DNA of 64,000 nucleotides from the NCBI RefSeq assembly GCF_014635185.1, contig NZ_BMCM01000001.1, positions 1,240,001-1,304,000 of the forward strand, written 5' to 3'. Positions 14,327 through 34,279 of this stretch are shown in pieces (the stretch's first letter is position 1; the number at the start of each line of letters is the position of its first letter). The notes below the pieces were generated by a model that worked only from the letters and a program-made list of their open reading frames with translations, was not told where the DNA came from and searched no databases. The stretch comes from Microbacterium murale. GTDB taxonomy: Bacteria; Actinomycetota; Actinomycetes; Actinomycetales; Microbacteriaceae. The position numbers and the translations under genes are program-made.

Positions 14327-14785
14327 TCAGTCCGTCGACGCGCGCCGAAGGCTCTGGTGCAGCGCCACGATGGCCTCGGTCGCGGCATCCAGAGCGGCGC
14401 GCTGTTTCGCGGACAGCTCTTCCAGGGCGGCGTCCACCGGGCTCGACCACGCCTCGGAGATCGCGGTGTGCTCGGAGACGCCGAGCGGGGTCGGGAAGAG
14501 GAGCGACACCCGGCGGTCTTCTTCGCTCTTCTCCCTGGTGATGAATCCTCGCGCCACGAGCACGCGGATCGCCGTGCTGACGTTCGGCTGCTGCAGCCCG
14601 AGAGCGGCCGCGAGATCCCCGACAGTCGAACCAGGGTTGTCGATCACCTGCTTGAGCAGCGCGATCTCGGTCGTAGGGATCGGTCCGACCCCGGCACGCT
14701 CTGGAGCAGTCCGGTGGATCGCCCACGCGAGCTCGCGCAGGGCGGTGCTCACGTCGGAGTGGGCTGTGGATGCCGGATTCACCAT
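14327..14785 (-). CDS. MarR-family transcriptional regulator
   Basis: The 152-residue protein has the MarR winged helix (about residues 30-105: TTEIALLKQVIDNPGSTVGDLAAALGLQQPNVSTAIRVLVARGFITREKSEEDRRVSLLFPT) with the wing Asp-Arg pair EEDRR, flanked by dimerisation helices. MarR proteins sense aromatic acids and repress catabolic or efflux genes. The ATG at 14785 lacks a good ribosome-binding site; GTG 14782 is the alternative. It lies downstream of a flavin monooxygenase gene but a hairpin separates them. The palindromes at 16142-16194 are candidate sites for it. Confidence 0.88.
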   Translation of the reverse strand: MVNPASTAHSDVSTALRELAWAIHRTAPERAGVGPIPTTEIALLKQVIDNPGSTVGDLAAALGLQQPNVSTAIRVLVARGFITREKSEEDRRVSLLFPTPLGVSEHTAISEAWSSPVDAALEELSAKQRAALDAATEAIVALHQSLRRASTD

Positions 14786-14847
14786 GGGAGGCCAGCTTAT
14801 CGGCGAGTCGCATCGGCGAAGACGCGACAGACGGAGAAGGACCAGGA

Positions 14848-14886
14848 GCCCGGCCGAAGTCCAAGGAGGCGAACCCTCGGCCGGGC
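14848..14886 (-). terminator. stem-loop after the flavin monooxygenase gene
   Basis: GCCCGGCCGA at 14848-14857 and its complement at 14877-14886 form a 10-base-pair GC stem with a 19-base loop just after the monooxygenase stop. There is no U-tract, as is usual in actinobacteria. Confidence 0.55.
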
Positions 14887-14907
14887 ACCTGGAGTGTGAG
14901 GGGCAGG

Positions 14908-16041
14908 TCAGAGCGGCTTGGCCATCTCCTTGAGCACATGCATGGTCGCAGCGACGTTGTCGAAGTCGGGCAGGCGGCCCATCTCCCACTCGCCGATGTT
15001 CAGGGACGTCTCGACGATCAGCTTGCAGCGCTCGAAGCGGCGAGCGGTGAACTCCTCGAACGCCGCCTCGTGATCGTCGTGCGCAGTGAGCACCTCGCCG
15101 AGCACGACGCCGTCTTCGATCGCCTGCGCCGCCCCCTGCCCGAGGTGCGGGGTGATCGCATGCACGGCATCGCCCATGAGGATGACGCGGCCGCGGTGCC
15201 ACGGCGCGGGAGCGATCAGCGACTCCTCCGGACGCAGCACGATGTCGGCCGGATCTTCGCTGAGGAACTCGTCACGGAAACGGCCGGCAAGACCTCCGAA
15301 ACCCTCCAGCTCCTTGCGCAGGGCCTTGGGGAGGTCCTCGGTCGCCGGACGCTCGCCGCGCTCCATCGGCTTGTTGAAAAACATGTAGGCGAGGTCGGGC
15401 CCGATCGGCACGAATCCGGCCATGCCGCTGGGGCCGTCCTGCAGGATGATGCGATCAATCTCCGGCAGTGCAGGCATGTTCTGCCGGTAGGCGGACTGCC
15501 CGATATAGCGCGGCTGCAACTCGGCATCCAGCACATAGCCGCGCACCTTCGAGCGCACGCCGTCCGCACCGACGACCACGTCGGCCGTGATCTGCGCGCC
15601 GCCCTCGAGCGTGACGAGCACGTCGTCCGCCCGCTCCTCCAGGGTCTCGAACGCCGTCGAGTACTGGATGCTCACGCCGATCTCGAGAGCACGCGCCGTG
15701 AGGATCTCGTGCAGCTTCGGCCGCGTGACGCCGTTCATCGGCGGCAGCGTGCTGCTCTCGATCGGCGTGCCATGGATGTCGCGGATGAAGTTGCCGTCGT
15801 GGTCGTACATCGCACCCCAGGCCTTCGCGGGGTAGCCGGCATCGATGCAGGCCTGTGCGCACCCGAGAGCATCGAGGGCGCGTAGCGCGTTGATCGGCTG
15901 GATGATGCCGACGCCGAACACGGACGCGTGGGCGTCGGGGTAGCGCTCGACGACGTGGACCTCGTGGCCTTCCTGGCGGAGGGCGATCGCTGCGGAGAGC
16001 CCGCCGATGCCGCCGCCGACTACGAGAATCTTTCTGGCCAT
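14908..16041 (-). CDS. FAD-dependent aromatic monooxygenase (salicylate/3-hydroxybenzoate hydroxylase-like)
   Basis: The 377-residue protein is a group A flavoprotein hydroxylase. It has the N-terminal dinucleotide motif VGGGIGGLSAA, a central VVGADGVRSKVR (DG motif for FAD/NADPH) and a late MGDAVHAITPHLGQGAAQAIEDG (GD motif). Such enzymes hydroxylate phenolic or carboxylated aromatic rings using NAD(P)H and O2 in the cytoplasm, often preparing a diol for ring cleavage; the extradiol dioxygenase gene at 19891 fits that order. ATG 16041 follows AGGTGAGAG. It diverges from the ribose-type ABC operon across a region with strong palindromes, so both sides are probably co-regulated. The exact substrate is unknown. 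Confidence 0.88.
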   Translation of the reverse strand: MARKILVVGGGIGGLSAAIALRQEGHEVHVVERYPDAHASVFGVGIIQPINALRALDALGCAQACIDAGYPAKAWGAMYDHDGNFIRDIHGTPIESSTLPPMNGVTRPKLHEILTARALEIGVSIQYSTAFETLEERADDVLVTLEGGAQITADVVVGADGVRSKVRGYVLDAELQPRYIGQSAYRQNMPALPEIDRIILQDGPSGMAGFVPIGPDLAYMFFNKPMERGERPATEDLPKALRKELEGFGGLAGRFRDEFLSEDPADIVLRPEESLIAPAPWHRGRVILMGDAVHAITPHLGQGAAQAIEDGVVLGEVLTAHDDHEAAFEEFTARRFERCKLIVETSLNIGEWEMGRLPDFDNVAATMHVLKEMAKPL

Positions 16042-16141
16042 TTCTCTCACCTACATCTTCGTGGTTCCAGGCTCCGCGCGTCTTCGCGGGGAGATGTCGG
16101 GGTTCGTCGCACGGATTTCTCCGAAGGTCTCGCCCTGGCGT

Positions 16142-16169
16142 AGAACATATGATTACATATATATGTTCT
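16142..16169. promoter_or_regulatory. palindromic operator 1 (AGAACATAT half-sites)
   Basis: AGAACATAT at 16142-16150 and ATATGTTCT at 16161-16169 are perfect 9-base complements separated by 10 bases. It overlaps operator 2 at its right arm. AT-rich in a GC-rich setting, between two divergent catabolic units. Confidence 0.65.
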
Positions 16170-16194
16170 GAAATGTTCTTCTGATTTCAGAACA
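16164..16194. promoter_or_regulatory. palindromic operator 2 (TGTTCTGAAAT half-sites)
   Basis: TGTTCTGAAAT at 16164-16174 and ATTTCAGAACA at 16184-16194 are perfect 11-base complements with a 9-base spacer. The TGTTCT end is shared with operator 1, so binding at one would exclude or help binding at the other. The regulator is unknown; MarR (14327) and GntR (22012) are the local candidates. Confidence 0.7.
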
Positions 16195-16252
16195 CACCGA
16201 TCCGGCCGACGACGGCCGGTGAGCCAACTGCGACGAAGCAGGGAGTGTGGTG

Positions 16253-17779
16253 ATGACGAGTCTCGACTCGACTCAGGCGCAGACGACGGGCATGCCCATC
16301 CTCGCGCTGGCAGGCGTTTCCAAGTCCTTCGGCGGTGCCGCGGCACTGCGTGACGTCGACTTCGATGTGCGCCCCGGCGAGGTGCACGCGCTGGTCGGAA
16401 TGAACGGTGCCGGAAAATCCACGCTGGTCGGCGTGCTCAGTGGCGCACACAACCCTGACGGCGGTGAGATCCGCTTCGACGGAGAACAGCTGTCGGGGCT
16501 GACACCACGCCGTGCGCGCGAGCAGGGCATCGCCACGGTTCCGCAGAAGCGCGATCTCGTGCTCGATCTCTCGGTCGCGGAGAACCTCTTCCTCGGCGAC
16601 CTTCCTCGCCGGGGCGGATGGGTCGGGTGGAAGGCCGTGCGATCGCAGGCCCGCGAGACGCTGCAGAGCATCGGACTCGACATCGACGAGCGGATGCCGG
16701 CAGGAGCGCTGACTGCGGCAGAACAGACCATGGTCGAGATCGCCCGAGAAGTCCGCCGCGGCGGCCGCGTACTGATCCTCGACGAGCCGACGGCATCCCT
16801 CGGGGGAGCGGCCGCCGAGCAGGTGCGCGATCTCGTCCGCCGCCTCCGCGCGCAGGGCACCGCGATCGTCTACATCTCCCACCACCTCGACGAGATCCTC
16901 GACATCGCCGACCGCGTCACGGTGCTCCGCGACGGACGCCGTCAGCTCACGGTGCCCGCATCCGAACTCGACATGGGATCGCTCGTCTATGCCATCGCCG
17001 GCGAGCATGTCGAATCCGAGCGTCCGGCGGCGCGCAGTGAATGGGGCGAGACGCGCCTGCGACTGGATGCCGTCAATGACGGAACCCGGCTGCGGGACCT
17101 CTCGCTCGAGGTTCGCGCCGGCGAAGTCGTCGCGGTGCTCGGTCCTGCGGGCGATGGGCAGTCGGCACTGTTCTCGCTGCTCTCCGGGACTGCGAGGCCG
17201 GATACCGGAACGCTCGAAGTCGAAGGCCGCCAGGTGGCGTGGGGCAGCGTCGCGCAGTCGCTGCGCAGCGGACTGCGGTGCGTCACCGGCGACCGCCTCG
17301 CGAACGGACTGATCGGTGCCCTCGGCATCAATGAGAACATCGTGCTCGCGATCGATCGTCGCACGGGTCGCCCCTGGGTCGATTGGAAGGCGTTGCGCGC
17401 ACGCGCGACGGTGATCCGCGACCGCTTCGGCGTGCGCACGATCCAGGCCGATCCGCCGGTCGGCCAGCTCTCCGGCGGCAATCAGCAGAAGGTGCTGCTC
17501 GGGAAATGGCTCGACGGCGATCCTCGGGTGTGCTTCCTGGAAGACCCCACCAATGGCGTCGACGTGCACGCCAAGGCCGACATCCATCACCTCATCGACG
17601 CTCTTGCGGCGCGCGGCACGGCGGTTCTTCTCGCCTCGTCGGATGTCGCGGAGGTCCAGCGTCTCGCCGACCGTGTCGTCGTCGTCAGCGCGGGCCGCCC
17701 GACGGCGGTGCTCGATGTCGCCGATACATCCCGCGACGAACTCGTCGCCCTCACCGTAGGAGGAACCTCCCGTGATTGA
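16253..17779 (+). CDS. ribose-type ABC importer ATPase (two ABC domains)
   Basis: The 508-residue protein has two ABC domains, as in RbsA/MglA. Domain 1 has Walker A GMNGAGKST, LTAAEQTMVEIARE in place of the usual signature, and Walker B VLILDEPTASL. Domain 2 has a degenerate Walker A (GPAGDGQSA, Lys replaced by Gln), signature LSGGNQQKVLLGKW and FLEDPTNGVD. Degeneration of the second P-loop is normal for this family. It energises uptake by the permease at 17772 and the binding protein at 18846. ATG 16253 follows GGGAG at 16241-16245; GTG 16247 is an alternative. The cargo is usually a sugar, but the setting suggests a glycoside or a non-sugar aromatic. Confidence 0.92.
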   Translation: MTSLDSTQAQTTGMPILALAGVSKSFGGAAALRDVDFDVRPGEVHALVGMNGAGKSTLVGVLSGAHNPDGGEIRFDGEQLSGLTPRRAREQGIATVPQKRDLVLDLSVAENLFLGDLPRRGGWVGWKAVRSQARETLQSIGLDIDERMPAGALTAAEQTMVEIAREVRRGGRVLILDEPTASLGGAAAEQVRDLVRRLRAQGTAIVYISHHLDEILDIADRVTVLRDGRRQLTVPASELDMGSLVYAIAGEHVESERPAARSEWGETRLRLDAVNDGTRLRDLSLEVRAGEVVAVLGPAGDGQSALFSLLSGTARPDTGTLEVEGRQVAWGSVAQSLRSGLRCVTGDRLANGLIGALGINENIVLAIDRRTGRPWVDWKALRARATVIRDRFGVRTIQADPPVGQLSGGNQQKVLLGKWLDGDPRVCFLEDPTNGVDVHAKADIHHLIDALAARGTAVLLASSDVAEVQRLADRVVVVSAGRPTAVLDVADTSRDELVALTVGGTSRD

Positions 17780-18761
17780 CAACGACGTCCGATCCACGAT
17801 GACCGCAACGGTCGCCCTGCAGGCCATGACCAAGCGTCGCTTCAGCCTCGGCGGTCACGGCGGACTGCTCATCGTCCTGCTGGTGGTCATCGTGATCACA
17901 GCCATCGGCTCCGAGGTGTTCCTCACCGCCCCCAACCTCATCAACGTGCTGCGACAGGTGAGCGTGATGGGAGTGATCGCCGCGGGTCTGACCGTGCTGA
18001 TGATCTCCGGCGGCATCGACTTCTCGATGGGGTCGAATGCCGTGGTCACGATGGCGCTCGTCGCGCAGCTCGTGACGAATGGTACGCCCACGATGATCGC
18101 AGTGCTGGTCGGCATCATCGCGGCAACGGTCGTCGGTCTGATTAACGGGCTCGTGGTGACGTTCACCAGGGTCGCACCCTTCGTCGCGACCCTGGCCGCC
18201 GCCACGCTGCTGGACGGTCTGGCGCTGTTCATCCTGAACGGCATGAGCGTCTCGGCCGGCCCTGACCTCAGCACCTTCGGCGTCGCCGAGCTCGGCGGCA
18301 TCCCGTATCTCCTCATCGCCGCGATCGTGATCTGCGTCGCGCTCGGTCTCACGCTGAAGTACACGAGCTTCGGGCGTGATGCCTTCGCGATCGGCGGCAA
18401 CGAGGACGCCGCACGTCTCAGCGGCATCCCTGTGGCTGCGCGCAAGATCACGCTCTACGCCCTGATGGGCCTGCTCGCCGGCATCACCGGCGTCATGCTG
18501 CTCGGGCGCCTGGGCGCCGCCAGCCCAGGCACCGCGGGACTCACGCTCGAACTGCAGGCCGTCGCTGCGGTCGTCATCGGCGGCACCTCGCTCGCAGGCG
18601 GCAGGGGCACGATGATCGGCACCGCCCTCGGCGTGATCCTGCTCGGCGTGCTCTCCAACGCATTGAACCTGCTCAGCATCTCCGCCTACATCCAGATGAT
18701 GGTCGTCGGCGGCGTGCTGCTGCTCGCGGCCATCGCCAATTCCTGGCGGAGCAGGCGCTGA
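17772..18761 (+). CDS. ribose-type ABC importer permease (RbsC family)
   Basis: The 329-residue protein has about nine to ten hydrophobic helices and the BPD_transp_2 pattern: VLMISGGIDFSMGSNAV near residue 75 and a cytoplasmic loop GGNEDAARLSGIPVAARKITLYALMG that contacts the ATPase. It ends in VAAVVIGGTSLAGGRGTMIGTALGV. It forms the membrane channel of the importer. GTG 17772 overlaps the ATPase stop by eight bases, so the pair is coupled. Confidence 0.92.
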   Translation: MIDNDVRSTMTATVALQAMTKRRFSLGGHGGLLIVLLVVIVITAIGSEVFLTAPNLINVLRQVSVMGVIAAGLTVLMISGGIDFSMGSNAVVTMALVAQLVTNGTPTMIAVLVGIIAATVVGLINGLVVTFTRVAPFVATLAAATLLDGLALFILNGMSVSAGPDLSTFGVAELGGIPYLLIAAIVICVALGLTLKYTSFGRDAFAIGGNEDAARLSGIPVAARKITLYALMGLLAGITGVMLLGRLGAASPGTAGLTLELQAVAAVVIGGTSLAGGRGTMIGTALGVILLGVLSNALNLLSISAYIQMMVVGGVLLLAAIANSWRSRR

Positions 18762-18845
18762 GCCGGACCCGTTCCGCGCGAATCCGACGCGCAACCCGTG
18801 CGCTCCTGTCCGGAGTGCACATCCACTGAGAGAAAGGCACGGCAG

Positions 18846-19811
18846 ATGAACAGGCAAAGAAGGCTGATTCCTCTCCTGACGGCGACCATCGCAGCAGGAC
18901 TCGTCTTCACCGGGTGCAGCGCATCCGGCACGGACAGCGGCGACGACGCGGCGGCAGGCGGTGACGCGGCGACCAAGATCGGCTTCATAAGCAGCGCGAA
19001 CAACGAGTGGGGCGCGTGCCTGCAGAACGGCATGGAATCCGCCGCCGAGGCGGAGGGCGTCGAGCTCCTGGTCGCCAACTCCGACGCGGATGCCGCGAAG
19101 GAGACGGGCAACATCGAGGACATGATCGCTCGGGGTGTCGACGCGATCGTGCTGAACACCGTGAGCGTCGACGCGATGGCGGGCGGCATCCAGAAGGCGA
19201 ATGCCGCGGATGTGCCGATCTATCTCGTCGCGGTCGTTCCCGACGATCTCACGGGTGTGCTCGGTGCGGCAGTCGTCGATCTCCCGGGAGTGGGCGGCAT
19301 CGCCGCCGACTGGATCGCTGAGGACTCCGGCGGCGACGACGTGAACGTCGCCGTGATCGGCGGAGCCCCCGGCGCATCGTCCGACTATGTCGTGAACGGT
19401 TTCAAGGAAGCCGTCGCTTCGAACGTCACGATCGTCGGCGAGCAGCCCGGGATGTACAACCGTGGCAAGGCGCAGGAGGTCGCCGAGAACTTCGCCCAGT
19501 CCAACCCCGACCTGGACTACGTCTTCGTCCTGAATGAAGACATGGCGTTCGGTGCCCGCAGCGCGTTCGACGCCGCGGGTATGGACGACGTGCGGATCGT
19601 GACGATGAACGGCACGGATGACGGCCTCGCGGCCATCGAGAGCGGTGAGTTCTCGGCCACGGTCGCCGATTCCGCGGCGAACCTCGGCGTGACATCGATC
19701 GAGAACACGTTGGCGTTGTTGAAGGATGTCTCCGGGGAGAAGGTCTTCGCAATGCCGACGGCGCTGATCACCGACGCCAACCTCGACGAAGCCATCCCGT
19801 TCTGCGGCTGA
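18846..19811 (+). CDS. ribose-type ABC substrate-binding lipoprotein
   Basis: The 321-residue protein has a lipoprotein signal (basic MNRQRR, hydrophobic stretch, lipobox FTGC with the lipidated Cys at about 23) and a type I periplasmic binding fold. KIGFISSANNEWGACLQNGM starts the domain, followed by DMIARGVDAIVLNTVSVDA, a hinge region, and DYVFVLNEDMAFGARSAFDAAG. It captures the ligand outside the membrane for the adjacent permease. ATG 18846 has a purine-rich GAGAAAGG upstream. Ligand specificity is not readable; family members bind pentoses, hexoses and autoinducer-like sugars. Confidence 0.9.
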   Translation: MNRQRRLIPLLTATIAAGLVFTGCSASGTDSGDDAAAGGDAATKIGFISSANNEWGACLQNGMESAAEAEGVELLVANSDADAAKETGNIEDMIARGVDAIVLNTVSVDAMAGGIQKANAADVPIYLVAVVPDDLTGVLGAAVVDLPGVGGIAADWIAEDSGGDDVNVAVIGGAPGASSDYVVNGFKEAVASNVTIVGEQPGMYNRGKAQEVAENFAQSNPDLDYVFVLNEDMAFGARSAFDAAGMDDVRIVTMNGTDDGLAAIESGEFSATVADSAANLGVTSIENTLALLKDVSGEKVFAMPTALITDANLDEAIPFCG

Positions 19812-19823
19812 TCGATCCCATGA

Positions 19824-19862
19824 GAAGAGCCGCCCTCCCCGATCGGGAAGGGCGGCTCTTCC
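19824..19862 (+). terminator. intrinsic-type hairpin after the importer operon
   Basis: GAAGAGCCGCCCTCCC at 19824-19839 pairs with GGGAAGGGCGGCTCTTC at 19845-19861 with a single bulge and a five-base loop. It follows the binding-protein stop by 13 bases and precedes the convergent dioxygenase gene, so it may act for both. Confidence 0.85.
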
Positions 19863-19890: not shown

Positions 19891-20886
19891 TCAGTGCAGC
19901 CCGAGGAACTCCTCGAGCGTCGCGGGGTTGGCCTTGAGAAGCGGGTCGAGCACCGGCTCGGCCGGGAACTCGCTGGCCTCGAAGAACCAGCGCCTGGATG
20001 CGGGCATGCCCCACAGCTGCGCTCGCTGCGGGTTGCTGACGTCCCAGCGCATCGGCGGGGTCTCCAGGTCGATGAACTGGTAATGAGTGGTGAACAGCTC
20101 GATGCGGTGCTGGTCGGGGTCGCGCACATACAGGAACAGTGCGTTGCTGATCCCGTGTCGGCCGGGGCCGCGATCGATCTCCTGGCCGAAGCCGGTCGCG
20201 CCGCACACGTCGGCCGCGTGGATCAGGGCGGCGGCGTCGGGAACCGTGTACGCGAAGTGGTGCAGGCGAGGGCCGCGGCCATTCGTGAAGACGAGGTCGT
20301 GCGTGTTGCCCTTCACCTCGAGCCAGGTGCCCCAGAGCTCATCGGTGCCGTCGGCTGCGGTGTACTCGGCCATGCGCATGCCGAGCCCCGCCCAGAAGTC
20401 GGTCGCGGACTGCACATCATGGATGGCCACCTGGTAGTGGTCGAGGCGCTGCGGGAACGAGCCGCGGAACTCGTCGAAGTTCTGCATCTTGCGCTCGACG
20501 ACGTCCATCGAGCTGGTGAGTTCGATGTGTGTGCCGACCGCATCGCGGAAGCGGATCGTCGGACCCTGGTGATCGACCTCGACGCGCTCGTATTCGATGC
20601 CCGTGCCGGCGAAGTGCTTCTCGGCGGCGACGATGTCATCGTCGGTGCGCACGCGCAGACCGATGTGCAGCGCCTGCGGCGCATCGGCACGCACGAGCAC
20701 CAGGCTGTGGTGCGCGGCCTCTTCCAGGCCGCGCAGGTACACGGTGTCATCGGCCTCTTCGGTGACGACGAGGCCGATCACGTCGCGGTAGAAATCGCGG
20801 CTGGCCTCGAGGTCGGTGACGGCGAGCGAGACGTGGCTCGCGCGGGTGAGCGCGAACGGCGGGGCGTCGTTGGTGGTGGGGAGCAC
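19891..20886 (-). CDS. type I extradiol ring-cleavage dioxygenase, homoprotocatechuate 2,3-dioxygenase-like
   Basis: The 331-residue protein has two VOC modules (about 14-135 and 148-270). The metal triad of the extradiol family is visible: His150 (RLDHYQVA), His209 or 210 (RLHHFAY) and Glu263 (HRIELFT). These positions and the C-terminal extension closely match Brevibacterium homoprotocatechuate dioxygenase (His155, His214, Glu267 as I recall). It would open a catecholic ring next to the diol using Fe(II) or Mn(II) and O2. GTG 20886 has AAGGAGG five bases upstream. It diverges from a LysR regulator. No semialdehyde dehydrogenase, isomerase or aldolase of the classic pathway is nearby. Confidence 0.88.
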   Translation of the reverse strand: MLPTTNDAPPFALTRASHVSLAVTDLEASRDFYRDVIGLVVTEEADDTVYLRGLEEAAHHSLVLVRADAPQALHIGLRVRTDDDIVAAEKHFAGTGIEYERVEVDHQGPTIRFRDAVGTHIELTSSMDVVERKMQNFDEFRGSFPQRLDHYQVAIHDVQSATDFWAGLGMRMAEYTAADGTDELWGTWLEVKGNTHDLVFTNGRGPRLHHFAYTVPDAAALIHAADVCGATGFGQEIDRGPGRHGISNALFLYVRDPDQHRIELFTTHYQFIDLETPPMRWDVSNPQRAQLWGMPASRRWFFEASEFPAEPVLDPLLKANPATLEEFLGLH

Positions 20887-20967
20887 AGCATCCTCCTTGA
20901 TGAGAGCGGAGTTCCAGTCTTCGCCGATCGGATGCTGCGCGGAACCGCCTATCTGACTGTCGCGGCC

Positions 20968-20982
20968 ATAGGTCAGGACTAT
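20968..20982. promoter_or_regulatory. LysR-type operator in the dioxygenase/LysR gap
   Basis: ATAG-N7-CTAT at 20968-20982 contains the T-N11-A pattern (T20969, A20981) of LysR sites. A second, overlapping CTAT...CTAT run follows to 20993, close to the LysR start at 21012. Confidence 0.5.
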
Positions 20983-21011
20983 ATCGACGCTATCCGCGTA
21001 GTATCTGATCA

Positions 21012-21917
21012 ATGGAACTTCGCCACCTGAGGTACTTCGCAGCTGTGGTCGAGGCCGGCTCGATCTCGGCCGCGGCGGCGCAGCTGCGCCTGTCGCAGCC
21101 CTCGCTCAGCGTGGCCATCTCGCGGCTTGAGACCGAAGTCGGCACACCACTGCTGGAGCGGTCGACGCGCGGCGTCGAACCCACCAGTGCCGGACGCTAT
21201 CTGCTCGGCGCGTCCTCTCGCGTGCTGAGCGACGTCGACGAGATCGCGAGCACGCTGACGCGGTTCGGCGCCGGGGTCGCCGGCACCCTCACGATCGCCG
21301 CAGTCCCCGTGCTGATGTGGCGCCGCATCCCCGAACTGCTCCGCCGATACGCCGCCGAGGCGCCCGATGTCGAGATCAACCTGCTCGATCCTCCTCCATG
21401 GGATGCCGTCGACATGCTGCAGCAGCGCACGGTCGACGTCGCGGCGGTCCTCGTCGCCGAGCCGAAGCGATTCGCGCGTCGGCATGCCTCTTCGTTCGAG
21501 GTGCACGACTGGGGCGAGGTTCCTCTGGTCGCCGTGCTCCCACCCGACCTGGCAGACGCGCCGGACCCGTTTCCCCTGCGTTCATTCGACGACCGCGTCC
21601 TCGTGCTGCCGCACCGCACCGCGGCGGTGCCGAGCCTGCCCGAGGCGGTGGATGCCGCACTGCGCCGGCACGGCGTCACGCCCTCCCGGATTCGCACGGT
21701 CGAGACGATCCAGGCGAGCCTCCCGCTCATCGAGGCCGGCCTCGCGTGGGGCATCCTGCCCGACCCTGATCGAGCCAGCCTCACCAGGTTCAACGTCACC
21801 ATGCGTCGGCTCGATCCTGATCCGAAGGGCCTGCAGGCGCTTGCTCTCGCGCGGCAGGGCGCGATGCAGTATCCGGCTCAGGCGCGACTGCTCGCCCTGA
21901 TCGACGAAACCGGCTGA
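21012..21917 (+). CDS. LysR-family transcriptional regulator
   Basis: The 301-residue protein has the LysR helix-turn-helix at residues 1-60 (MELRHLRYFAAVVEAGSISA with QLRLSQPSLSVAISRLETEVG) and a two-lobed effector domain from about 90. It diverges from the extradiol dioxygenase gene and very likely activates it in response to a pathway intermediate, the usual arrangement for aromatic catabolism. ATG 21012 starts right at the conserved MELRHL. No effector can be deduced. Confidence 0.9.
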   Translation: MELRHLRYFAAVVEAGSISAAAAQLRLSQPSLSVAISRLETEVGTPLLERSTRGVEPTSAGRYLLGASSRVLSDVDEIASTLTRFGAGVAGTLTIAAVPVLMWRRIPELLRRYAAEAPDVEINLLDPPPWDAVDMLQQRTVDVAAVLVAEPKRFARRHASSFEVHDWGEVPLVAVLPPDLADAPDPFPLRSFDDRVLVLPHRTAAVPSLPEAVDAALRRHGVTPSRIRTVETIQASLPLIEAGLAWGILPDPDRASLTRFNVTMRRLDPDPKGLQALALARQGAMQYPAQARLLALIDETG

Positions 21918-21924
21918 TCTCTCC

Positions 21925-21953
21925 CTGAGATCGTGTGCGAAATTTGATAGGAT
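21925..21953 (+). promoter_or_regulatory. gntR promoter with spacer operator ATCGTGTGCGA
   Basis: CTGAGA (21925-21930), 17 bases, TAGGAT (21948-21953) form a plausible sigma-70 promoter. ATCGTGTGCGA at 21930-21940 fills the start of the spacer and recurs at the same place in the catabolic promoter at 25110. Confidence 0.6.
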
Positions 21954-22011
21954 CGAGACTGCACGACTGACGTACGCTGATGTCGTCGGAGAGCAGACAA
22001 GGGGGCTCGCG

Positions 22012-22674: not shown

Positions 22675-22680
22675 ACGGGC

Positions 22681-23985: not shown

Positions 23986-24006
23986 CGGATGCTCCGCGGG
24001 CGTTGT

Positions 24007-25056: not shown

Positions 25057-25109
25057 GACGCTCTCCTTTGTGCGCTCGGGCTCTTGAAAATAACAGTAGC
25101 GCATCGCGC

Positions 25110-25138
25110 TTGAAATCGTGTGCGATCCTGCGTACGAT
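25110..25138 (+). promoter_or_regulatory. catabolic operon promoter with spacer operator ATCGTGTGCGA
   Basis: TTGAAA (25110-25115), 17 bases, TACGAT (25133-25138). The spacer holds ATCGTGTGCGAT (25115-25126), a palindrome ATCG-TGTG-CGAT, in the same register relative to the -10 as at 21930-21940. Likely GntR site. Start of transcription about 25145, just before the AAGGAGG of the dienelactone hydrolase gene. Confidence 0.7.
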
Positions 25139-25168
25139 CAATCTCACGTTCAAGGAGGAATGACGACG

Positions 25169-25912: not shown

Positions 25913-25936
25913 CCGGATCCGACAGAGAGAGACCAC

Positions 25937-27211: not shown

Positions 27212-27630
27212 CCGGCACGGTTGAAGAGGAGGTCCTGGCGGTCGAGAAGCGTCGGCAGGCCGCCCTGGTCGCGGGCGACACCGCCGCGCTCGACGAGATC
27301 TTCGACGACTCACTGATCCACATCCACGCGCCGGGGCTCGTGCACACCAAGACGCTGCTCCTCGAGCACGTGTCGGTGCGCAGGGCGTACATCGAGATCA
27401 CCCGTCAGGATCTGCTGGTGCGCGTCTTCGGGGATACCGCCGTCGTCACGGGCGGCATCGTGAATCGCATGCACGCCCCCGGAGGCGGCGAGCGCATCGT
27501 CGACGGCGTCGTCACTCAGGTGCTGCATCGCGGCGAAGACGGACAGTGGCGGTTCGTGAGCTTCCAGATGACGCCGTTCGGTGAAGAGGTCTGGGGCACG
27601 CTGCCGAGCGAGCAGAAGGAGAACGCATGA
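27208..27630 (+). CDS. NTF2-like (SnoaL/DUF4440) protein
   Basis: The 140-residue protein shows the DUF4440 pattern: VEEEVLAVEKRRQAALVAGDTAALDEIFDDSLIHIHAPG, then a middle helix, then RIVDGVVTQVLHRGEDGQWRFVSFQMTP. The HIHAPG motif places His residues where members of this fold keep catalytic bases. It may be a small isomerase, cyclase or hydratase of the pathway. The ATG overlaps the monooxygenase stop by four bases, and its own stop overlaps the next start (ATGA). Confidence 0.78.
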   Translation: MTGTVEEEVLAVEKRRQAALVAGDTAALDEIFDDSLIHIHAPGLVHTKTLLLEHVSVRRAYIEITRQDLLVRVFGDTAVVTGGIVNRMHAPGGGERIVDGVVTQVLHRGEDGQWRFVSFQMTPFGEEVWGTLPSEQKENA

Positions 27631-28496
27631 AGCTCGCACGCTTCCACACCGGGGACGGGCTGATTCGCATCGGCCTCGTCGACGGCGCTGAGGTCGTCGA
27701 TCTCTCGGGCGTCGAGGGCGTCGGCACCTCGCTGAAGGCGCTGATCCCCGAGCTCGATGCTCTGCGGGACAGCATCCTCGTGGCATCCGGCCCGCGGCAT
27801 CCGCTTCGTGGTGTCACTCTGCTGGCGCCGATCGATGACCCGCAGAAGTTCCTCGGCATCGGGATGAACTATGCGGCCCACGCCGAAGAGGCGCGCGCCG
27901 CCGGCATCCCGATCCCCACCAGCCAGATGTGGTTCAACAAGCAGGTCTCCTGCATCAACGATCCGTTCGGCGACATCGTGCGTCCGGCCGTGTCGGAGCA
28001 GCTCGACTACGAGATCGAGCTCGGCGTCGTGATCGGCAAGGCCGCCCGCAACGTCACCGCGGAAGACGCGCGAGAGTACATCGCGGGCTACCTCGTCGCC
28101 AACGATGTGTCGGTGCGCGACTGGCTGGCCAAGCTCTCGCCGACGTTCACGCTGGGCAAGTCGTTCGACACGCACGGTCCGATCGGGCCGTGGCTGACGA
28201 CCGTCGATGAGATCGTCGACCCGCTGAAACTGCAGATGACGCTCAGCGTGAACGGTGAAGTGCGACAGAATGCAGACACCTCAGACATGATCTACGACAT
28301 CTACATGCAGATCGCGTATCTCAGTCAGGTGATGACGCTGATGCCCGGTGACATCCTCGCCACCGGCACTCCCTCGGGGATCGGCGCGCCGACGCAGAAC
28401 TGGCTCGTGCCGGGCGACGTCGTGCGCGCCGAGATCCAGGGACTCGGCATGATCGAGAACACCGTCGTGGCGAACGAACTCGTCGAGGACGACTGA
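27627..28496 (+). CDS. fumarylacetoacetate hydrolase family protein
   Basis: The 289-residue protein has an N-terminal lid-like region and the FAH core: FLGIGMNYAAHAEEA, metal motif DYEIELGVVIGK (Glu-x-Glu), a conserved NDVSVRDW, GKSFDTHGPIGPW and DILATGTPSGIG. The family hydrolyses or decarboxylates 1,3-diketo or dienedioate products of ring cleavage (fumarylpyruvate hydrolase, HHDD isomerase, acylpyruvase) using Mg2+ or Mn2+. It is the expected step after an extradiol or gentisate-type cleavage in this cluster. Overlaps the upstream gene by four bases. Confidence 0.9.
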   Translation: MKLARFHTGDGLIRIGLVDGAEVVDLSGVEGVGTSLKALIPELDALRDSILVASGPRHPLRGVTLLAPIDDPQKFLGIGMNYAAHAEEARAAGIPIPTSQMWFNKQVSCINDPFGDIVRPAVSEQLDYEIELGVVIGKAARNVTAEDAREYIAGYLVANDVSVRDWLAKLSPTFTLGKSFDTHGPIGPWLTTVDEIVDPLKLQMTLSVNGEVRQNADTSDMIYDIYMQIAYLSQVMTLMPGDILATGTPSGIGAPTQNWLVPGDVVRAEIQGLGMIENTVVANELVEDD

Positions 28497-28592
28497 CATG
28501 AGGATCTGCTTCTCGAGGGCCCACGGGTCCAGCGAGAACCCCTAGACCCCCGGACCCGATCCGGTGGACCAATTGATGCCAAGGAGGCAAAG

Positions 28593-30116
28593 GTGCCACG
28601 CAAGAGTGCAGTAATGAGGTCGGTGACGCTGTTGGCGGTCACCGGCGTGCTGATCGCGGGATGTTCCGCGGCCGAACCGGAGGCGGATGACGGCGGAACC
28701 ACCGTGTCCGACGCCACGCTTCGAGTGAACTTCGGTCAGTTCCCCGAGAACTGGTCCCCCGGCCAGGAGATGGAGGGCGGTCCGCTCCGCATCCCCTACG
28801 AGACCCTGCTCGCACCCGGAGAGGACGGGCAGCCCGCGCCGTTCCTCGCCACCGATTATGAGCTCACCGCCGATGCCCTGACGCTGACGCTGCGCGAGGG
28901 CGTCACCTTCCACGACGGTGAACCCTTCAACGCCGAAGCGGTCAAGGCCAACGTGGAGTTCGTCCGCGACGGCGCCACCGCCTATGCCGGTCCGCTGCAG
29001 GCCGTGGCATCCGTTGATGTGGTCGACGAGTACACGGTGCGGCTCAATCTGACCGGCCCGACGCCGTCGATCGCGAACACGCTCACCACGCGTGTGCTGC
29101 CGATCGCGAGCCCTGCCGCCATCGCCGACGGCTCGATCGCCCAGACGCCGGTGGGCACATCGCCCTGGGCATATGACGAGGCTGGATCGGTCATCGGCAC
29201 GCGCATGCTGTTCAGCGCCTTCGACGACTACTGGGGCGATGAGCCCGGTTTCGCGAACGTCGAGCTCTACGCGATCGATGAGGCGGAGTCTTCGGCGGCG
29301 GCCCTGCTCGCCGGCGAGATCGACATCACCGACACCGAGATCACCACCCTGCCCCGATTCGAGGGTTCGAACATCGAATCGCTCCAGTACCCGGCGATCC
29401 GCAACAACCTGTTCTTCTTCGATCGCGGACCCGGCGGCACTTTCGAGTCCGTCGAACTGCGCCAGGCGGTCTGCTACGCGATCGACGTCGACCAGTTCGT
29501 CAAGGTCGAGGGCGAGGGCGAGTCAGCCACGCAGCACTTCGTCGAAGGCGAGCTCGGCTACAACCCCGACATCGAGGGGTACCCGACGGATCTCGCTCAG
29601 GCGCAGGAGCTCTATGAGGCGGCGGGCAGCCCGTCGGTCGATGTCGAGATGGTCGCCGCGCCTTACAACGCGAGCCAGATCGAGATCTACATGACCCAGG
29701 CCGCCGAGATCGGCGACTTCAACGTCAGCGTCCAGACGCTGCCGCCGCCCCAGTACAACGGCGAGTGGAACTCGGGCAAGTACCCCATGGGTCTGTCGTC
29801 GAACGACGAGCTGACTCCGTTCGAGTGGTACAGCGCGTGGTTCGCCGCCGACGCTCCTGGGAACCCGTCCGGTGTGGAGAGCGCGGAGCTCGCCGACGCC
29901 GCAGCGGCAGCGATCGCTGCGGGCGACTCGGAGGAGGCCGCGGATCTGTGGGCCGAGGTCACGAAGATCATCTCCGAAGAGGCCCTCACCTGCGCCCACC
30001 AGCGCGGTGTGGAGACTCTGGCGTGGAACGCTGACGCCGTCGCCGGTGTCGACGCGCCGAACGAGCCCTGGGAGCCGAAGTCGGTCAACTACCGAGAGCT
30101 GACACCCGTCTCGTGA
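28593..30116 (+). CDS. peptide/nickel-type ABC substrate-binding lipoprotein (SBP_bac_5)
   Basis: The 507-residue protein has a lipoprotein signal ending LIAGCSA and the family 5 binding fold. YELTADALTLTLREGVTFHDGEPFNAEAVKANVEF is the family signature, followed by VGTSPWAYDEAG and later LRQAVCYAIDVDQF. Family 5 proteins bind peptides, but also glycosides, opines and metal chelates. GTG 28593 has AAGGAGG five bases upstream. It heads the importer genes of the catabolic operon, so it probably captures the pathway substrate rather than peptides. Confidence 0.9.
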   Translation: MPRKSAVMRSVTLLAVTGVLIAGCSAAEPEADDGGTTVSDATLRVNFGQFPENWSPGQEMEGGPLRIPYETLLAPGEDGQPAPFLATDYELTADALTLTLREGVTFHDGEPFNAEAVKANVEFVRDGATAYAGPLQAVASVDVVDEYTVRLNLTGPTPSIANTLTTRVLPIASPAAIADGSIAQTPVGTSPWAYDEAGSVIGTRMLFSAFDDYWGDEPGFANVELYAIDEAESSAAALLAGEIDITDTEITTLPRFEGSNIESLQYPAIRNNLFFFDRGPGGTFESVELRQAVCYAIDVDQFVKVEGEGESATQHFVEGELGYNPDIEGYPTDLAQAQELYEAAGSPSVDVEMVAAPYNASQIEIYMTQAAEIGDFNVSVQTLPPPQYNGEWNSGKYPMGLSSNDELTPFEWYSAWFAADAPGNPSGVESAELADAAAAAIAAGDSEEAADLWAEVTKIISEEALTCAHQRGVETLAWNADAVAGVDAPNEPWEPKSVNYRELTPVS

Positions 30117-30165
30117 TCACGATGCACTGCCTGCCGGGGCGAGTCGACGAGAGGATGGACCTGAA

Positions 30166-31110
30166 ATGATCAAGCTCATCCTCTCCCGCCTCGCCCTGGC
30201 GATCCCTCAGCTGATCCTTCTGTCGTTCTTCGTCTTCCTGCTCGTCTACCTGGTTCCAGGCAGCCCGGCGGCGGCGATCCTGGGTGCTGCGGCGACGCCG
30301 GAGAGCATCGCGGGACTCGAAGCCCAGCTGGGGCTGGATCGACCCTTCTTCGTTCGACTCGGTGAGTACTACGCCGGGGTGCTTCAGGGCGACTTCGGCA
30401 ACTCGTTCGCCTCGGGTCGTCCCGTCACGGCGATCTTCGCGGAGCGACTGCCGGCAACACTGTCGCTGCTCCTCGGCGGAGTCATCGTCGCAGTGCTCCT
30501 CGGTCTTGCACTCGGGCTCATCGGCGGCACCAAGCCTGGATCCATCCGCGACCGCGTCGCCACGGCCGTCACGAGCCTGACGATGGCAGTGCCCGAGTTC
30601 TGGATCGGCATCGTGCTGATGCTGGTGTTCGCCGTGCAGCTGCAGATCTTCCCTGTGGTCGCCTACGTGCCGATCACCGTCGATCCCGTCGCCTGGATGC
30701 GCGGCCTCGTGCTTCCCTCGATCGCACTCGGCATCGCCGGCGCGGCACTGATAGCCAGGCAGACACGCACCGCCATGGCGCAGACCATGTCATCGCGCTA
30801 CATCGACTCACTCGCCGCCGCCGGGGTACCGCGGAGTCGACTGATCTTCCGCTACGGCTTCAAGAACGCGCTCGTGCCGATCCTCGCGTCGACCGGCATC
30901 ACGGTGAGCATCATGCTCGGCGCGAGCTTCGCCGTCGAGAAGGTGTTCGCGTTCCCCGGCGTCGGCACCCTCATCGTCCGCAGCGTCACGAGCAAGGACT
31001 TCGCCGTCGTGCAGGGCGGCGTGCTGCTGATCGCCACCCTGGTGATCCTCATCAACCTCATACTCGACATCAGCTACGGGCTGATCGATCCGAAATCGCG
31101 ACCCCAATGA
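30166..31110 (+). CDS. DppB-type ABC importer permease
   Basis: The 314-residue membrane protein has six predicted helices and the DppB layout: an N-terminal helix (RLALAIPQLILLSFFVFLLVYLVPG), LGLDRPFFVRLGEYYAGVLQGDFGNSF, and the cytoplasmic loop DSLAAAGVPRSRLIFRYGFKNALVP that docks on the ATPases. It pairs with the permease half encoded at 31107. ATG 30166 is preceded by GAGAGG. The next gene overlaps its stop (ATGA). Confidence 0.93.
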   Translation: MIKLILSRLALAIPQLILLSFFVFLLVYLVPGSPAAAILGAAATPESIAGLEAQLGLDRPFFVRLGEYYAGVLQGDFGNSFASGRPVTAIFAERLPATLSLLLGGVIVAVLLGLALGLIGGTKPGSIRDRVATAVTSLTMAVPEFWIGIVLMLVFAVQLQIFPVVAYVPITVDPVAWMRGLVLPSIALGIAGAALIARQTRTAMAQTMSSRYIDSLAAAGVPRSRLIFRYGFKNALVPILASTGITVSIMLGASFAVEKVFAFPGVGTLIVRSVTSKDFAVVQGGVLLIATLVILINLILDISYGLIDPKSRPQ

Positions 31111-33023
31111 GCGACACCTACACGACGACGGTCCAGGCCGCATCGCCCCGCAAGCACGCGTCGAACATCGGCAGAGTGCTCTCCAGAGTGCGCCGTCAGC
31201 CCGCGACGCTGCTCGCCTTCGCGTTCATCGTGCTGCTGATCGTCGTGGCCATCGCGGCGCCGTGGATCGCGCCGTACGACCCGAATCAGGCGCACCTCGA
31301 CAACGTGCTCGAGGCACCGTCCGCCCAGTTCCTGCTCGGCACAGACGACCTCGGTCGAGACCAGCTGAGCCGTCTCATCTACGGTGCGCGGATCGTGCTG
31401 CTCATCGCCGTCGGCTCGGTGCTGATCGCGATGGTCATCGGCGTTCCGCTCGGTCTGGTGTTCGGCTTCCACGGCGGCTGGTGGGACCGCATCGGCATGC
31501 GCTTCGTCGACATGGCGCAGTCACTGCCGGGCATGATGATCGGCATCACGGTCATCGCGATCCTCGGCCGGAACATGTTCATCCTCATGTTCGCGATCGG
31601 CCTCATCTTCTCGATGGCGTTCGCGCGCATGACGAGAGCGACCGTGCTGGTCGAGCGTCGCAAGCTCTACGTCGAGGCCGCCGAGGTCGTGGGACTGCGC
31701 CGTGGTCAGATCATCTTCGGGCAGGTGCTGCCGAACCTGATCGGTCCGATCATCACCCAGGGTGCTGTCTTCCTCGGATCGGCGATCATGATCGAGTCGG
31801 CCATGAGCTTCCTCGGCGTCGGTCTCGACAGCGACACCCCGACGTGGGGCTCCATGCTGAGCCTCGCGGTGGACAAGCAGAATGTCGCCCCGTATCTGAG
31901 CTGGCCGCCCGGCATCGCGATCGTGCTCGTCGTATTGTCGTTCAGCGTCTTCGGCGACGGATTGAACGATGCGCTCGTCGGCGAGAAGCGCCGTGTGCCG
32001 CGTCTCGGCGTCCGCTCGCGGGGCACGGTGGACGATTCCTTCGCCGTGGCCGGTGCCGGCGCTGCGGTGTCGGTCGGCACTTCGAAGAAGGCGGCATCCG
32101 CGGTCGCCGCCGACCGCCCGGCAGCCATCGTGGACGGCCCATCGCCGCTTCTGCACGCCCGTGATGTCAGCGTCTCCGTGCTGCGACCCGATGGCGAGCA
32201 GGTCGACCTCGTCACGCGCATCGGGCTCGACGTCGCGAAGGGCGAGATCGTCGGGCTGCTCGGCGAATCAGGCTCCGGCAAGTCGACATTCGCGCGCGCG
32301 GTGCTCGGAATGCTTCCCGCCGGCACCTGGCTGTCGTCGGGCGACATCCGCCTCGACGGCGAGCAGATCGCAGGCAAGACCGAACGCGAGCTGCGATCGG
32401 TGCGCGGCGCGAAGATCGGGGCGGTGTTCCAGGACCCGATGACGGCGCTGTCACCCGTGCACACCGTGGGAACGCAGCTCATCGAACCGCTGCGCATCCA
32501 CAAGGGCATGAACCGTTCACAGGCTCGGGCGAGGGCGGTCGAGCTGCTGGAGCGTGTCGGTGTACGCGGCGCCGCCTCGCGGCTGGACGACTACCCGCAT
32601 CAGTTCTCCGGCGGAATGGCCCAGCGCGTCGCGATCGCCATGGCGCTCGCCGCAGACCCGGAACTGCTCATCGCCGACGAGGCGACGAGCGCGCTCGACG
32701 TCACCACACAGAGCCAGGTGCTCGATCTCATCCTGGACCTGCGCGACGAGTACGGAATGGGCGTTCTGATGATCACGCACAGCCTGGGGGTGGTCGCCGA
32801 GACCTGCGACCGTGCTGCCGTCATGTATCGAGGGCGCATCGTCGAGGATGCTGCGGTCGACCGCCTCTTCGACTCGCCTCAGCATCCCTATACCGCAGCG
32901 CTGCTGCAGGCGAACCCGATGAATGCGGTCGGGCGCGATCGGCTGCCCGTGATCGATGCGCAGCTGCGCGCCACCATCGACGCCTCACTGGATGCCATCG
33001 ATGCGAAGGAGGGCCGCCGATGA
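31107..33023 (+). CDS. fused DppC-type permease and DppD-type ATPase
   Basis: The 638-residue protein joins two subunits that are usually separate. Residues 1-290 are a DppC permease ([19 protein letters not shown] near 77-95, coupling loop [20 protein letters not shown] about 190-209). A linker of about 55 Ala/Val/Gly-rich residues follows. From about 345 comes an ABC ATPase with Walker A GESGSGKS (386-393), signature [16 protein letters not shown] and [13 protein letters not shown]. The frame is open throughout, with no sign of an assembly frameshift. Similar fusions occur in some actinobacterial transporters. It partners the permease at 30166 and the ATPase at 33020. Confidence 0.9.
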
Positions 33024-33856
33024 GTACGCCACTCCTCGAGGTTCGCGGACTGTCCGCAGGCTACGAACAGAAGGTCGGCCTGTTCCGGCGCAGGGTCGTG
33101 CCCGCCGTGCGCGACATCAGCTTCGACATCCATCCGGGTGAGACTCTGGCGTTCGTCGGGGAATCCGGTTCGGGCAAGAGCACGACGGGCCGCGCGATCC
33201 TGCGGTTGCTCCCGACACTGGCGGGGAGCATCCGTTTCGACGGGCAGGACCTGGCGGAGTGGGGGGAGCGCACCCCGTTGGCATATCGGCGGCAGGTGCA
33301 GGCGGTCTTCCAGGATCCGAGCGCGTCGCTGAACCCGCGCCACCTCATCTCGCACACCCTCGACACCGCGCTCGAGCGTCACGGGCACCGAGATCGACGC
33401 GACCGACGTGATCGGATGGTCGAGGCGATCGAGCTCGTCGGGCTCGGCGTGGAGCATCTCGATCGTTTCCCGGTCGAGATGTCGGGAGGGCAGCAGCAGC
33501 GCGCGGCGATCGCCAGGGCTCTGGTGCTCGAGCCGAGGCTCGTCGTGTGCGATGAGGCCGTGAGCGCCCTCGACCTCTCGACGCAGGGGCAGATCATCAA
33601 CCTGCTCGCCGACCTGCAGCAGAAGACCGGCGTGAGCTACCTGTTCATCGCGCATGACCTGGCACTCGTGCGGCACATCGCCGATCGGGTCGGGGTGATG
33701 AGCCAGGGGGACCTGGTCGAACTCGCCGAAACCGAGGAACTGTTCGAGTCTCCGCAGGATGCCTACACGCGGCGGCTGCTTGCCGCGACGCCGGCGTCGC
33801 ATCCGGCCGGCCGCGAGGAGAGACGGCTGCAGCGGAAGACGATCAGGACGGCATGA
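33020..33856 (+). CDS. DppF/OppF-type ABC importer ATPase
   Basis: The 278-residue protein has Walker [27 protein letters not shown] typical of OppF/DppF, signature MSGGQQQRAAIARAL, Walker B LVVCDEAVSALDLS and the H-loop FIAHDLALVRHI. It would be the second nucleotide-binding subunit with the fused ATPase. It is shorter than the usual 320-330 residues; the C-terminal region that carries an iron-sulfur or regulatory extension in some relatives is missing. ATGA overlap with the upstream gene. Confidence 0.9.
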   Translation: MSTPLLEVRGLSAGYEQKVGLFRRRVVPAVRDISFDIHPGETLAFVGESGSGKSTTGRAILRLLPTLAGSIRFDGQDLAEWGERTPLAYRRQVQAVFQDPSASLNPRHLISHTLDTALERHGHRDRRDRRDRMVEAIELVGLGVEHLDRFPVEMSGGQQQRAAIARALVLEPRLVVCDEAVSALDLSTQGQIINLLADLQQKTGVSYLFIAHDLALVRHIADRVGVMSQGDLVELAETEELFESPQDAYTRRLLAATPASHPAGREERRLQRKTIRTA

Positions 33857-33892
33857 CGATCATGCGGTGTCGGCTGCAGTGAAGGAGGATCC

Positions 33893-34279
33893 ATGGGCGG
33901 ACGTGTGAGCATCGAACTGCCCGGCTTCGGGCACGCGAACCCCATTCCGGCGGCGAGCCGCATCGGGCCGTTCCTCGCGTCGGGCGCGCTCACCGGGCGC
34001 GACCCGCAGACCCGCGAGATGCCGGAAGGGCTCGACGAGCAGTGCGCGAATGTGTTCCAGCACATCCGTGCGCTGATGGATGCCGCGGGCGGATCGACCG
34101 ACGACATCCTCAAACTCACGATCCACCTGACGACGTATCGCGATCGTGATGCGCTGAACCGTGAGTGGTCGGCGATGTTCCCCGACCCGGCCTCCCGGCC
34201 CGCGCGCCAGGTGCTGGCCGCCGAGCTCGACGGCGGCGCACTCGTCCACGCCGATGTGCTGGCGGTGCTCAGCGGCTGA
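33893..34279 (+). CDS. RidA-family protein (YjgF/YER057c/UK114)
   Basis: The 128-residue protein has the RidA trimer pattern (SGALTGRDPQTREMPEGLDEQCANVFQHIRALM, then DILKLTIHLTTY). Arg105 in RPARQV, the residue that holds the substrate carboxylate, is kept, while the Glu120 of the classical deaminase is Ala. RidA proteins hydrolyse enamine/imine intermediates, and one branch contains 2-aminomuconate deaminase. With an ACMSD-like gene in the same locus, an amino-substituted ring-cleavage intermediate is conceivable. Good GGAGGATCC before ATG 33893. Last gene of the plus-strand operon. Confidence 0.88.
   Translation: MGGRVSIELPGFGHANPIPAASRIGPFLASGALTGRDPQTREMPEGLDEQCANVFQHIRALMDAAGGSTDDILKLTIHLTTYRDRDALNREWSAMFPDPASRPARQVLAAELDGGALVHADVLAVLSG

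Follow-up and report, generated by a model that had tools for sequence, protein, structure and literature searches.

A DUF3500-containing gene cluster that recurs in Actinobacteria and Proteobacteria and may serve the aerobic degradation of polyhydroxylated benzenes

A stretch of 64,000 nucleotides from Microbacterium murale (contig NZ_BMCM01000001.1, positions 1,240,001 to 1,304,000 of the forward strand), hereafter called the window, carries between positions 19891 and 34279 a gene cluster that includes a DUF3500 protein, an extradiol dioxygenase, a PhzS-like flavin monooxygenase, several hydrolases, and an ABC importer. Genes were called by codon composition and then scanned against Pfam and NCBIfam. 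An earlier, sequence-only reading of this DNA had listed monooxygenases, a dioxygenase, hydrolases, two importers, and three regulators, and every gene that it named has a good coding signal and support from the Pfam and NCBIfam scans. It had also treated these genes as a single 20-kb cluster, which is correct only in part: the segment from 19891 to 34279 (~14.4 kb) recurs as a cluster in other bacteria, but the segment from 14327 to 19811 is inherited separately. The GC content of the window gives no sign of an island, and a reading of the region as a GC anomaly was dropped because no anomaly was seen. The genes of the cluster are listed below, with the number of 44 actinobacterial loci (described in the next paragraph) at which a relative was found.

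19891 to 21012, minus strand: extradiol dioxygenase of a divergent HpaD-like subfamily, TIGR02295 (at least 30 of 44)
21012 to 21917, plus strand: LysR regulator, Pfam/NCBIfam scans (25 of 44)
22012 to 22674, plus strand: GntR/FCD regulator, Pfam/NCBIfam scans (31 of 44)
22681 to 23985, minus strand: DUF3500 protein, PF12006, the proposed ring-opening enzyme (used to find the loci)
24007 to 25104, minus strand: Amidohydro_2 protein with an altered metal site (43 of 44)
25118 to 25912, plus strand: dienelactone-hydrolase family enzyme, Pfam/NCBIfam scans (36 of 44)
25937 to 27211, plus strand: PhzS-like FAD monooxygenase (40 of 44)
27208 to 27630, plus strand: NTF2-like (DUF4440) small protein (33 of 44)
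27627 to 28496, plus strand: FAH-family hydrolase (at least 29 of 44)
28593 to 33856, plus strand: Dpp/Opp-type importer, comprising an SBP_bac_5 binding protein, DppB, a fused DppC-DppD, and DppF
33893 to 34279, plus strand: RidA-family protein (at least 23 of 44)

The sequence-only reading had proposed a search for the same gene set across Actinobacteria, and a cluster of the 19891 to 34279 type was found at 44 actinobacterial loci. The genome collection was scanned with two peptide patterns from an alignment of window-like DUF3500 proteins, a procedure that favors close relatives and is not a census of the family. It gave 51 loci: the 44 actinobacterial ones (DUF3500 identity of at least 56%), five from Proteobacteria (40-43%), and two others. 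Four Demequina loci (L034-L037) were taken together with L086, L085, L087, and L090, and L122 with L060, each being counted once. Neighboring genes were assigned at identity cut-offs of 40-60%, depending on the family, for the 44 loci and 32-55% for the five, with at least 40% of the query covered. Genes in the relatives were called by a simple GC3 script, which missed some of them, and several loci end at contig ends or at the 10-kb flank, such that the counts for FAH, RidA, the importer, and the extradiol dioxygenase are lower bounds. Pfam and NCBIfam were applied to a selection of the 866 neighbor proteins called, plus some from other loci.

All five proteobacterial loci encode an FAH protein (64-68% identical), an NTF2-like protein, and an SDR protein; four carry the amidohydrolase, four the PhzS-like monooxygenase, four RidA, and three the extradiol dioxygenase. 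Other neighboring families occur in five loci at most, apart from importer, SDR, succinate-semialdehyde dehydrogenase (SSADH), and Hpa/RraA families, a flavin monooxygenase discussed at the end (FMO1), and one antisense set. The type of importer varies among the 44 loci, with Dpp only in 19, a sugar-type (CUT2) importer only in 18, both in one, and neither in six, and further transporters include a TRAP system in a Gemmobacter locus and an MFS gene on a Thioclava plasmid. That plasmid (L106, NZ_CP149928.1; mangrove soil) holds a near-complete set within ~14 kb, with genes for FAH, amidohydrolase, monooxygenase, MFS, NTF2, SDR, dienelactone hydrolase, hpaD, DUF3500, a second FAH, hpaH, and an HpaI-type aldolase. 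Genes for RidA and an annotated agmatinase are found ~2-3 kb beyond this set. The cluster is also present in Microbacterium aoyamense (L060). Divergence among seven gene families is correlated (r of 0.25 to 0.66 over 21 pairs), although we do not use this as evidence because species history alone could produce such values. Literature searches found no characterized counterpart, which leaves standing the earlier claim that the genes serve the catabolism of an aromatic compound and have no known match. The segment from 19891 to 34279 is a real and widespread bacterial catabolic cluster that is uncharacterized as far as those searches show. Its gene content and co-inheritance are evident from the comparisons above, and conserved active-site residues are evident from the alignments that follow.

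The DUF3500 protein of the window matches PF12006 with 306.8 bits (cut-off 27.2), and four histidines (H225, H226, H407, and H409) are invariant in an alignment of 46 sequences. Reportedly, the cluster around the DUF3500 gene of Aspergillus nidulans (AN10530; Martins et al. 2024) also holds a monooxygenase gene and an FAH-like gene. In the window, a flavin monooxygenase gene (25937 to 27211) and an FAH gene (27627 to 28496) are likewise clustered with DUF3500. The A. nidulans DUF3500 protein has been proposed to open the ring of 1,2,3,5-tetrahydroxybenzene (THB) to give 5-hydroxydienelactone (PMC12388069), and a 2026 paper describes the THB pathway as apparently restricted to fungi (PMC13094099). 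A. niger lacking all 17 recognized ring-cleavage genes still grows on gallate, and an unrecognized ring-opening route must therefore exist there.

DUF3500 also occurs in other bacterial settings. A first sample comprised 20 loci from 34 DUF3500-bearing genomes among 198 of the order; six were of the window type, five (L039-L043) were of a second type with DUF3500, FAH, and an FAD_binding_3 monooxygenase together, one had DUF3500 and FAH, and eight had distant DUF3500 proteins. The second type shares this trio with the window but differs from it otherwise. Its monooxygenase, labelled MhpA-like, is longer and only 24% identical to the PhzS-like enzyme over 56%, MFS and GntR genes are present in three of the five loci, and nothing closely matches the window's amidohydrolase, dienelactone hydrolase, or extradiol dioxygenase. 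Two bacterial architectures are thus built around the trio of DUF3500, FAH, and flavin monooxygenase. Paraburkholderia sprentiae and Rhodococcus qingshengii likewise have plasmids that carry DUF3500 near FAH. Separately, a second short DUF3500-like stretch lies elsewhere in the M. murale genome (L105, G000:C1:1165000-1181000, ~8031-8648), with weak matches over the family cut-off.

The extradiol dioxygenase scores 337.6 bits against TIGR02295 (HpaD; cut-off 321.4), but it is probably not what this best family name says. The iron ligands of HpaD, which we take to be His155, His214, and Glu267, are kept in all 34 aligned proteins (H192, H252, and E305), as are most catalytic residues. However, Ala331 replaces Arg293 of the Brevibacterium enzyme in 34 of 34, and the same proteins have Gln for Asn157, Phe for Tyr269, and His for Asp272. 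We assume that Arg293 binds the carboxylate of the substrate in HpaD. The HpaD encoded elsewhere in the same genome keeps its RRDWWG motif. This second enzyme belongs to a separate hpa set on another contig (L104, G000:C2:364500-384400) with HpaG-RraA, HpaE, HpaD, HpaH, and HpaI, in which HpaG is fused to an RraA-like aldolase domain.

The sequence-only reading had considered the classic downstream steps to be missing. This holds for the window, where tblastn (to 1e-8) found no aldehyde dehydrogenase of the HpaE or SSADH type, no HpaH, and no HpaI, but not beyond it, given the hpa genes on the other contig and the homologues of HpaG, RraA, HpaH, and HpaI in 28-30 of the 44 actinobacterial loci. 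One HpaH and one HpaI from two proteobacterial loci exceed the NCBIfam cut-offs. At the thresholds used, no HpaE-type dehydrogenase was found in any of the 44 actinobacterial or five proteobacterial loci. An aldehyde dehydrogenase in seven of the 44 and two of the five instead resembles SSADH; the one that was scanned exceeds the SSADH cut-off, and those from actinobacterial loci are 45-48% identical to SSADH versus 35-38% to the HpaE of the M. murale genome. Fourteen actinobacterial loci lack the extradiol dioxygenase, and among ten of their genomes that were checked, five hold a relative of 74-76% identity elsewhere.

The Amidohydro_2 protein likewise appears to be noncanonical rather than what its best family name suggests. 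Its best solved relatives are carboxyvanillate and resorcylate decarboxylases, both weak matches, with ACMSD also among the weak ones. In the Amidohydro_2 decarboxylases (ACMSD, LigW, and gamma-resorcylate decarboxylase), an Asp near the C-terminus presumably binds metal. Ser323 of the window protein aligns with this Asp in 4inf and 3s4t, and it is Ser in 30 of 30 relatives, in which N23, H25, H197, H198, H247, and S323 are all invariant. Other enzymes of the cluster keep their catalytic motifs. Dienelactone hydrolases use a Cys-Asp-His catalytic triad, and C138, D189, and H221 are at least 97% conserved in an alignment of 39 proteins; FAH-family enzymes use a metal triad of the form E-x-E...D, and E129, E131, and D160 are at least 97% conserved in an alignment of 35. 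The PhzS-like monooxygenase keeps its FAD motifs, and its best PDB matches are 2rgj and 3c96 (2e-66), which we take to be PhzS structures. None of the phenazine core genes was found among the 30 open reading frames of the window that were scanned. In RidA, Arg105, which we believe to be the catalytic Arg of Rid deaminases, is at least 97% conserved in an alignment of 28.

We favor, with a probability of slightly under one half (about 0.48), the possibility that the genes from 19891 to 34279 encode an aerobic pathway for polyhydroxylated benzenes, most likely THB or a close analogue, with a phenol or phenolic acid of plant origin as the starting compound. The Dpp-type importer would take up this compound, and the PhzS-like monooxygenase and the noncanonical amidohydrolase would convert it to a fully hydroxylated ring, which the DUF3500 protein would open with O2. 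This role is assigned to DUF3500 because of the literature on the family and because of the trio with FAH and a flavin monooxygenase in two architectures. The dienelactone hydrolase, which is present in most loci and whose family acts on the compound class of the proposed DUF3500 product, is placed next and would open the hydroxy-dienelactone so formed. Isomerization might be helped by the NTF2-like and RidA proteins, and FAH would cleave an acylpyruvate, for which the chemical expectation is conversion of 2,4-dioxoadipate to pyruvate and malonate. The extradiol dioxygenase would open a second catecholic or pyrogallol-type ring, and its product would pass to HpaG, HpaH, and HpaI, whose genes lie elsewhere in the M. 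murale genome and adjoin the cluster in most relatives. Control would fall to the GntR/FCD and LysR proteins. We infer all reactions of this pathway, and its substrate, from sequence.

Some loci carry additional genes that may bear on the substrate. Two carboxylesterase genes inside the Promicromonospora cluster (L057, 12732-17005) hint at an ester-linked substrate there. Genes resembling the syringate and vanillate O-demethylases LigM and DesA in four of the 44 loci (L062, L078, L082, and L090), the one that was scanned falling short of the NCBIfam cut-offs, hint at methoxylated aromatics. Both kinds of genes would be in keeping with phenolic acids and esters from plants.

The window has the combination of DUF3500, a flavin monooxygenase, and an FAH-like protein that is reported for the fungal THB pathway. 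Unlike that pathway, it adds the dienelactone hydrolase, the noncanonical amidohydrolase, the NTF2-like and RidA proteins, and ABC importers, and the bacterial type further adds the extradiol dioxygenase, with HpaG, HpaH, and HpaI in relatives. The most fitting interpretation of the cluster is a tetrahydroxybenzene route in a bacterial version, extended by further branches.

Several observations weigh against this reading. The amidohydrolase and the extradiol dioxygenase are not among the genes reported for the fungal cluster, and the link between the DUF3500 protein of the window and fungal AN10530 is their shared Pfam family. Among PDB sequences, the sole DUF3500 relative with an E value below 0.001 is Amc20 (9x86), for which no function was found; the titles among the literature matches listed are on unrelated subjects. 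DUF3500 and its proposed partners also separate. The distant DUF3500 proteins of L044-L051 (eight of the 20 loci in the first sample) and those of L100 and L101 (two of the 51) stand without other genes of the cluster, L038 combines DUF3500 with FAH but lacks a matching monooxygenase, and FAH relatives of 60-63% identity are found where the surrounding 18 kb hold no DUF3500. Finally, the other five of the ten genomes that were checked (three Streptomyces, a Nocardioides, and a Virgisporangium) have no relative of the extradiol dioxygenase above 34% identity, and their loci nevertheless retain homologues of RraA, HpaH, and HpaI after DUF3500. The retention of HpaH and HpaI where the extradiol dioxygenase is missing fits poorly with the proposed junction of the two branches.

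A special case of the polyhydroxylated-benzene pathway, in which the substrate is a two-ring plant polyphenol such as a flavonoid or flavan-3-ol, strikes us as somewhat unlikely. The amidohydrolase would split the molecule into halves, a phloroglucinol-type ring would be degraded by hydroxylation and DUF3500, and a catechol-type ring would go through the extradiol dioxygenase and HpaG, HpaH, and HpaI. Most loci do combine two ring-opening families with two lower pathways (30 of 44 for the extradiol dioxygenase and 28-30 of 44 for Hpa/RraA), the active site of the amidohydrolase is unusual, and some hosts have plant-related names (Leifsonia sp. Leaf264 and Root227). However, the five genomes without a close extradiol dioxygenase keep the remainder of the cluster, and no quercetinase, chalcone isomerase, or glycosidase was seen among the scanned proteins, a part of the neighbors. 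The fde flavonoid locus, in the passages compared, also has a Rieske component, and none was seen in the cluster of the window.

It is unlikely, to a further degree, that the extradiol dioxygenase opens the ring of the main substrate and that DUF3500 performs another task, such as hydrolysis or isomerization. In favor of such a role, the iron ligands and checked catalytic residues are kept in 34 of 34 proteins, and extradiol cleavage beside a third hydroxyl would yield an acid directly, which matches the absence of an HpaE-type dehydrogenase from all 44 loci at the threshold used. Against this, half of the ten genomes checked have DUF3500 but no close dioxygenase, and such a dioxygenase does not accompany DUF3500 in clusters of the second type or in published accounts of the fungal pathway.

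The sequence-only reading had seen hints of a nitrogen-containing or amino-substituted ring in the PhzS-like, ACMSD-like, and RidA proteins, and we consider such a substrate improbable. Among proteins of solved structure, PhzS is indeed closest to the monooxygenase and ACMSD is one of the weak relatives of the amidohydrolase, but these are resemblances at the family level, the amidohydrolase is closer to carboxyvanillate and resorcylate decarboxylases, and its metal-binding Asp is lost. RidA keeps the hint alive through the conserved Arg105, which corresponds to the catalytic Arg of Rid deaminases, and makes a nitrogen-containing intermediate conceivable, although it was found in only 23 of 44 loci (a lower bound). 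No amidase or aminotransferase was identified among the recurring neighbor families, part of which were identified, and the DUF3500 literature points to a polyhydroxylated benzene (PMC12388069, PMC13094099).

An alternative homoprotocatechuate (4-hydroxyphenylacetate) pathway is the least probable of these explanations and very doubtful: it would fit the HpaD-level score of the dioxygenase, the HpaH and HpaI proteins above cut-offs in two proteobacterial loci and their homologues in 28-29 of 44, yet the Arg293 equivalent is lost in 34 of 34, HpaE-type dehydrogenases are found in none of the 44 loci, and the genome already has a separate HpaD/HpaE/HpaG/HpaH/HpaI set. The cluster does resemble the hpa pathway in having an HpaD-like dioxygenase with HpaG, HpaH, and HpaI beside it in most relatives, and it differs by its DUF3500, PhzS-like, and amidohydrolase genes as well as by the two missing features just named.

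To return to the polyhydroxylated-benzene pathway, a bolder extension of it is doubtful but perhaps worth stating. DUF3500 might represent a widespread bacterial class of tetrahydroxybenzene-opening oxygenases, here combined with a re-tooled extradiol dioxygenase that converts a three-hydroxyl ring to an acid and needs no semialdehyde dehydrogenase, the two forming an undescribed route for plant polyphenols. If so, a ring-opening route that has been called seemingly restricted to fungi (PMC13094099) would also exist in Actinobacteria and Proteobacteria, at least once on a plasmid. A large family without an assigned function would gain a testable role, and many bacteria of soil, plants, and the sea might be able to use rings of the gallate or phloroglucinol type aerobically. 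Two enzymes, the extradiol dioxygenase and the amidohydrolase, further stand out in the analysis for their altered active sites.

Three known clusters were compared and set aside. The fde naringenin locus of Herbaspirillum seropedicae resembles the window in combining a flavin monooxygenase with ring fission in an aromatic cluster, but its monooxygenase has a Rieske partner, FdeD, and DUF3500 is unmentioned in the passages compared. The main text on the Microbacterium benzoxazinoid (bxd) cluster, which alone was compared, describes a lactonase as its characterized gene and contains no DUF name and no mention of "monooxygenase", which makes for a partial exclusion. For the ifc isoflavone cluster, the part of the source compared names two cupin proteins, which makes for a weak comparison.

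The left segment of the region, from 14327 to 19811, comprises three features.

14327 to 14899, minus strand: MarR regulator (Pfam MarR_2), start codon uncertain, open reading frame to 15202
14908 to 16050, minus strand: FAD monooxygenase 1 (FMO1), PRK06847/HpxO-like, FAD_binding_3
16247 to 19811, plus strand: sugar-type (CUT2/RbsB-like) ABC importer with ATPase, permease, and binding protein

Searches of 99 genomes of the genus (E up to 1e-60) with two queries, the cluster amidohydrolase and the sugar-type importer's binding protein, found each in three genomes, namely that of M. murale with G218 and G293 for the former and with G271 and G270 for the latter. The two therefore occur together in the M. 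murale genome alone. Both G271 and G270 have the importer (67-73% identical) in a back-to-back arrangement with relatives of FMO1 (65-66%) and MarR (58-61%), and no further gene of the cluster above 35% identity was found in the 20 kb fetched (L120 and L121). This genus distribution, together with the presence of the segment without the cluster in L120 and L121, indicates that 14327 to 19811 is a separate cassette, and the idea of one 20-kb unit was rejected for the same reasons. The sugar-type importer of the window was found in none of the 44 relatives' loci at 45% identity or more. FMO1 relatives adjoin seven related clusters (66-68% identity in six of the 44 actinobacterial DUF3500 loci and 56% in L123), and the cassette may for this reason feed the same metabolism as the DUF3500 cluster.

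A few further features of the region deserve mention. In the Dpp-type importer, the second permease and the first ATPase are fused into one protein of 638 residues (31107 to 33023, plus strand), and long DppCD-type proteins recur in relatives as a family of 19 loci. Just to the right of the cluster, a gene on the minus strand (35090 to 36133) encodes a FUSC/ArAE-type aromatic acid exporter that could act as a safety valve for phenolic acids. Between the two lies a DNA alkylation repair gene (34291 to 34962). Beyond the exporter gene, a siderophore uptake set (36260 to 41171) encodes a Peripla_BP_2 protein, an FecCD permease, an ABC ATPase, and a siderophore-interacting flavoprotein.

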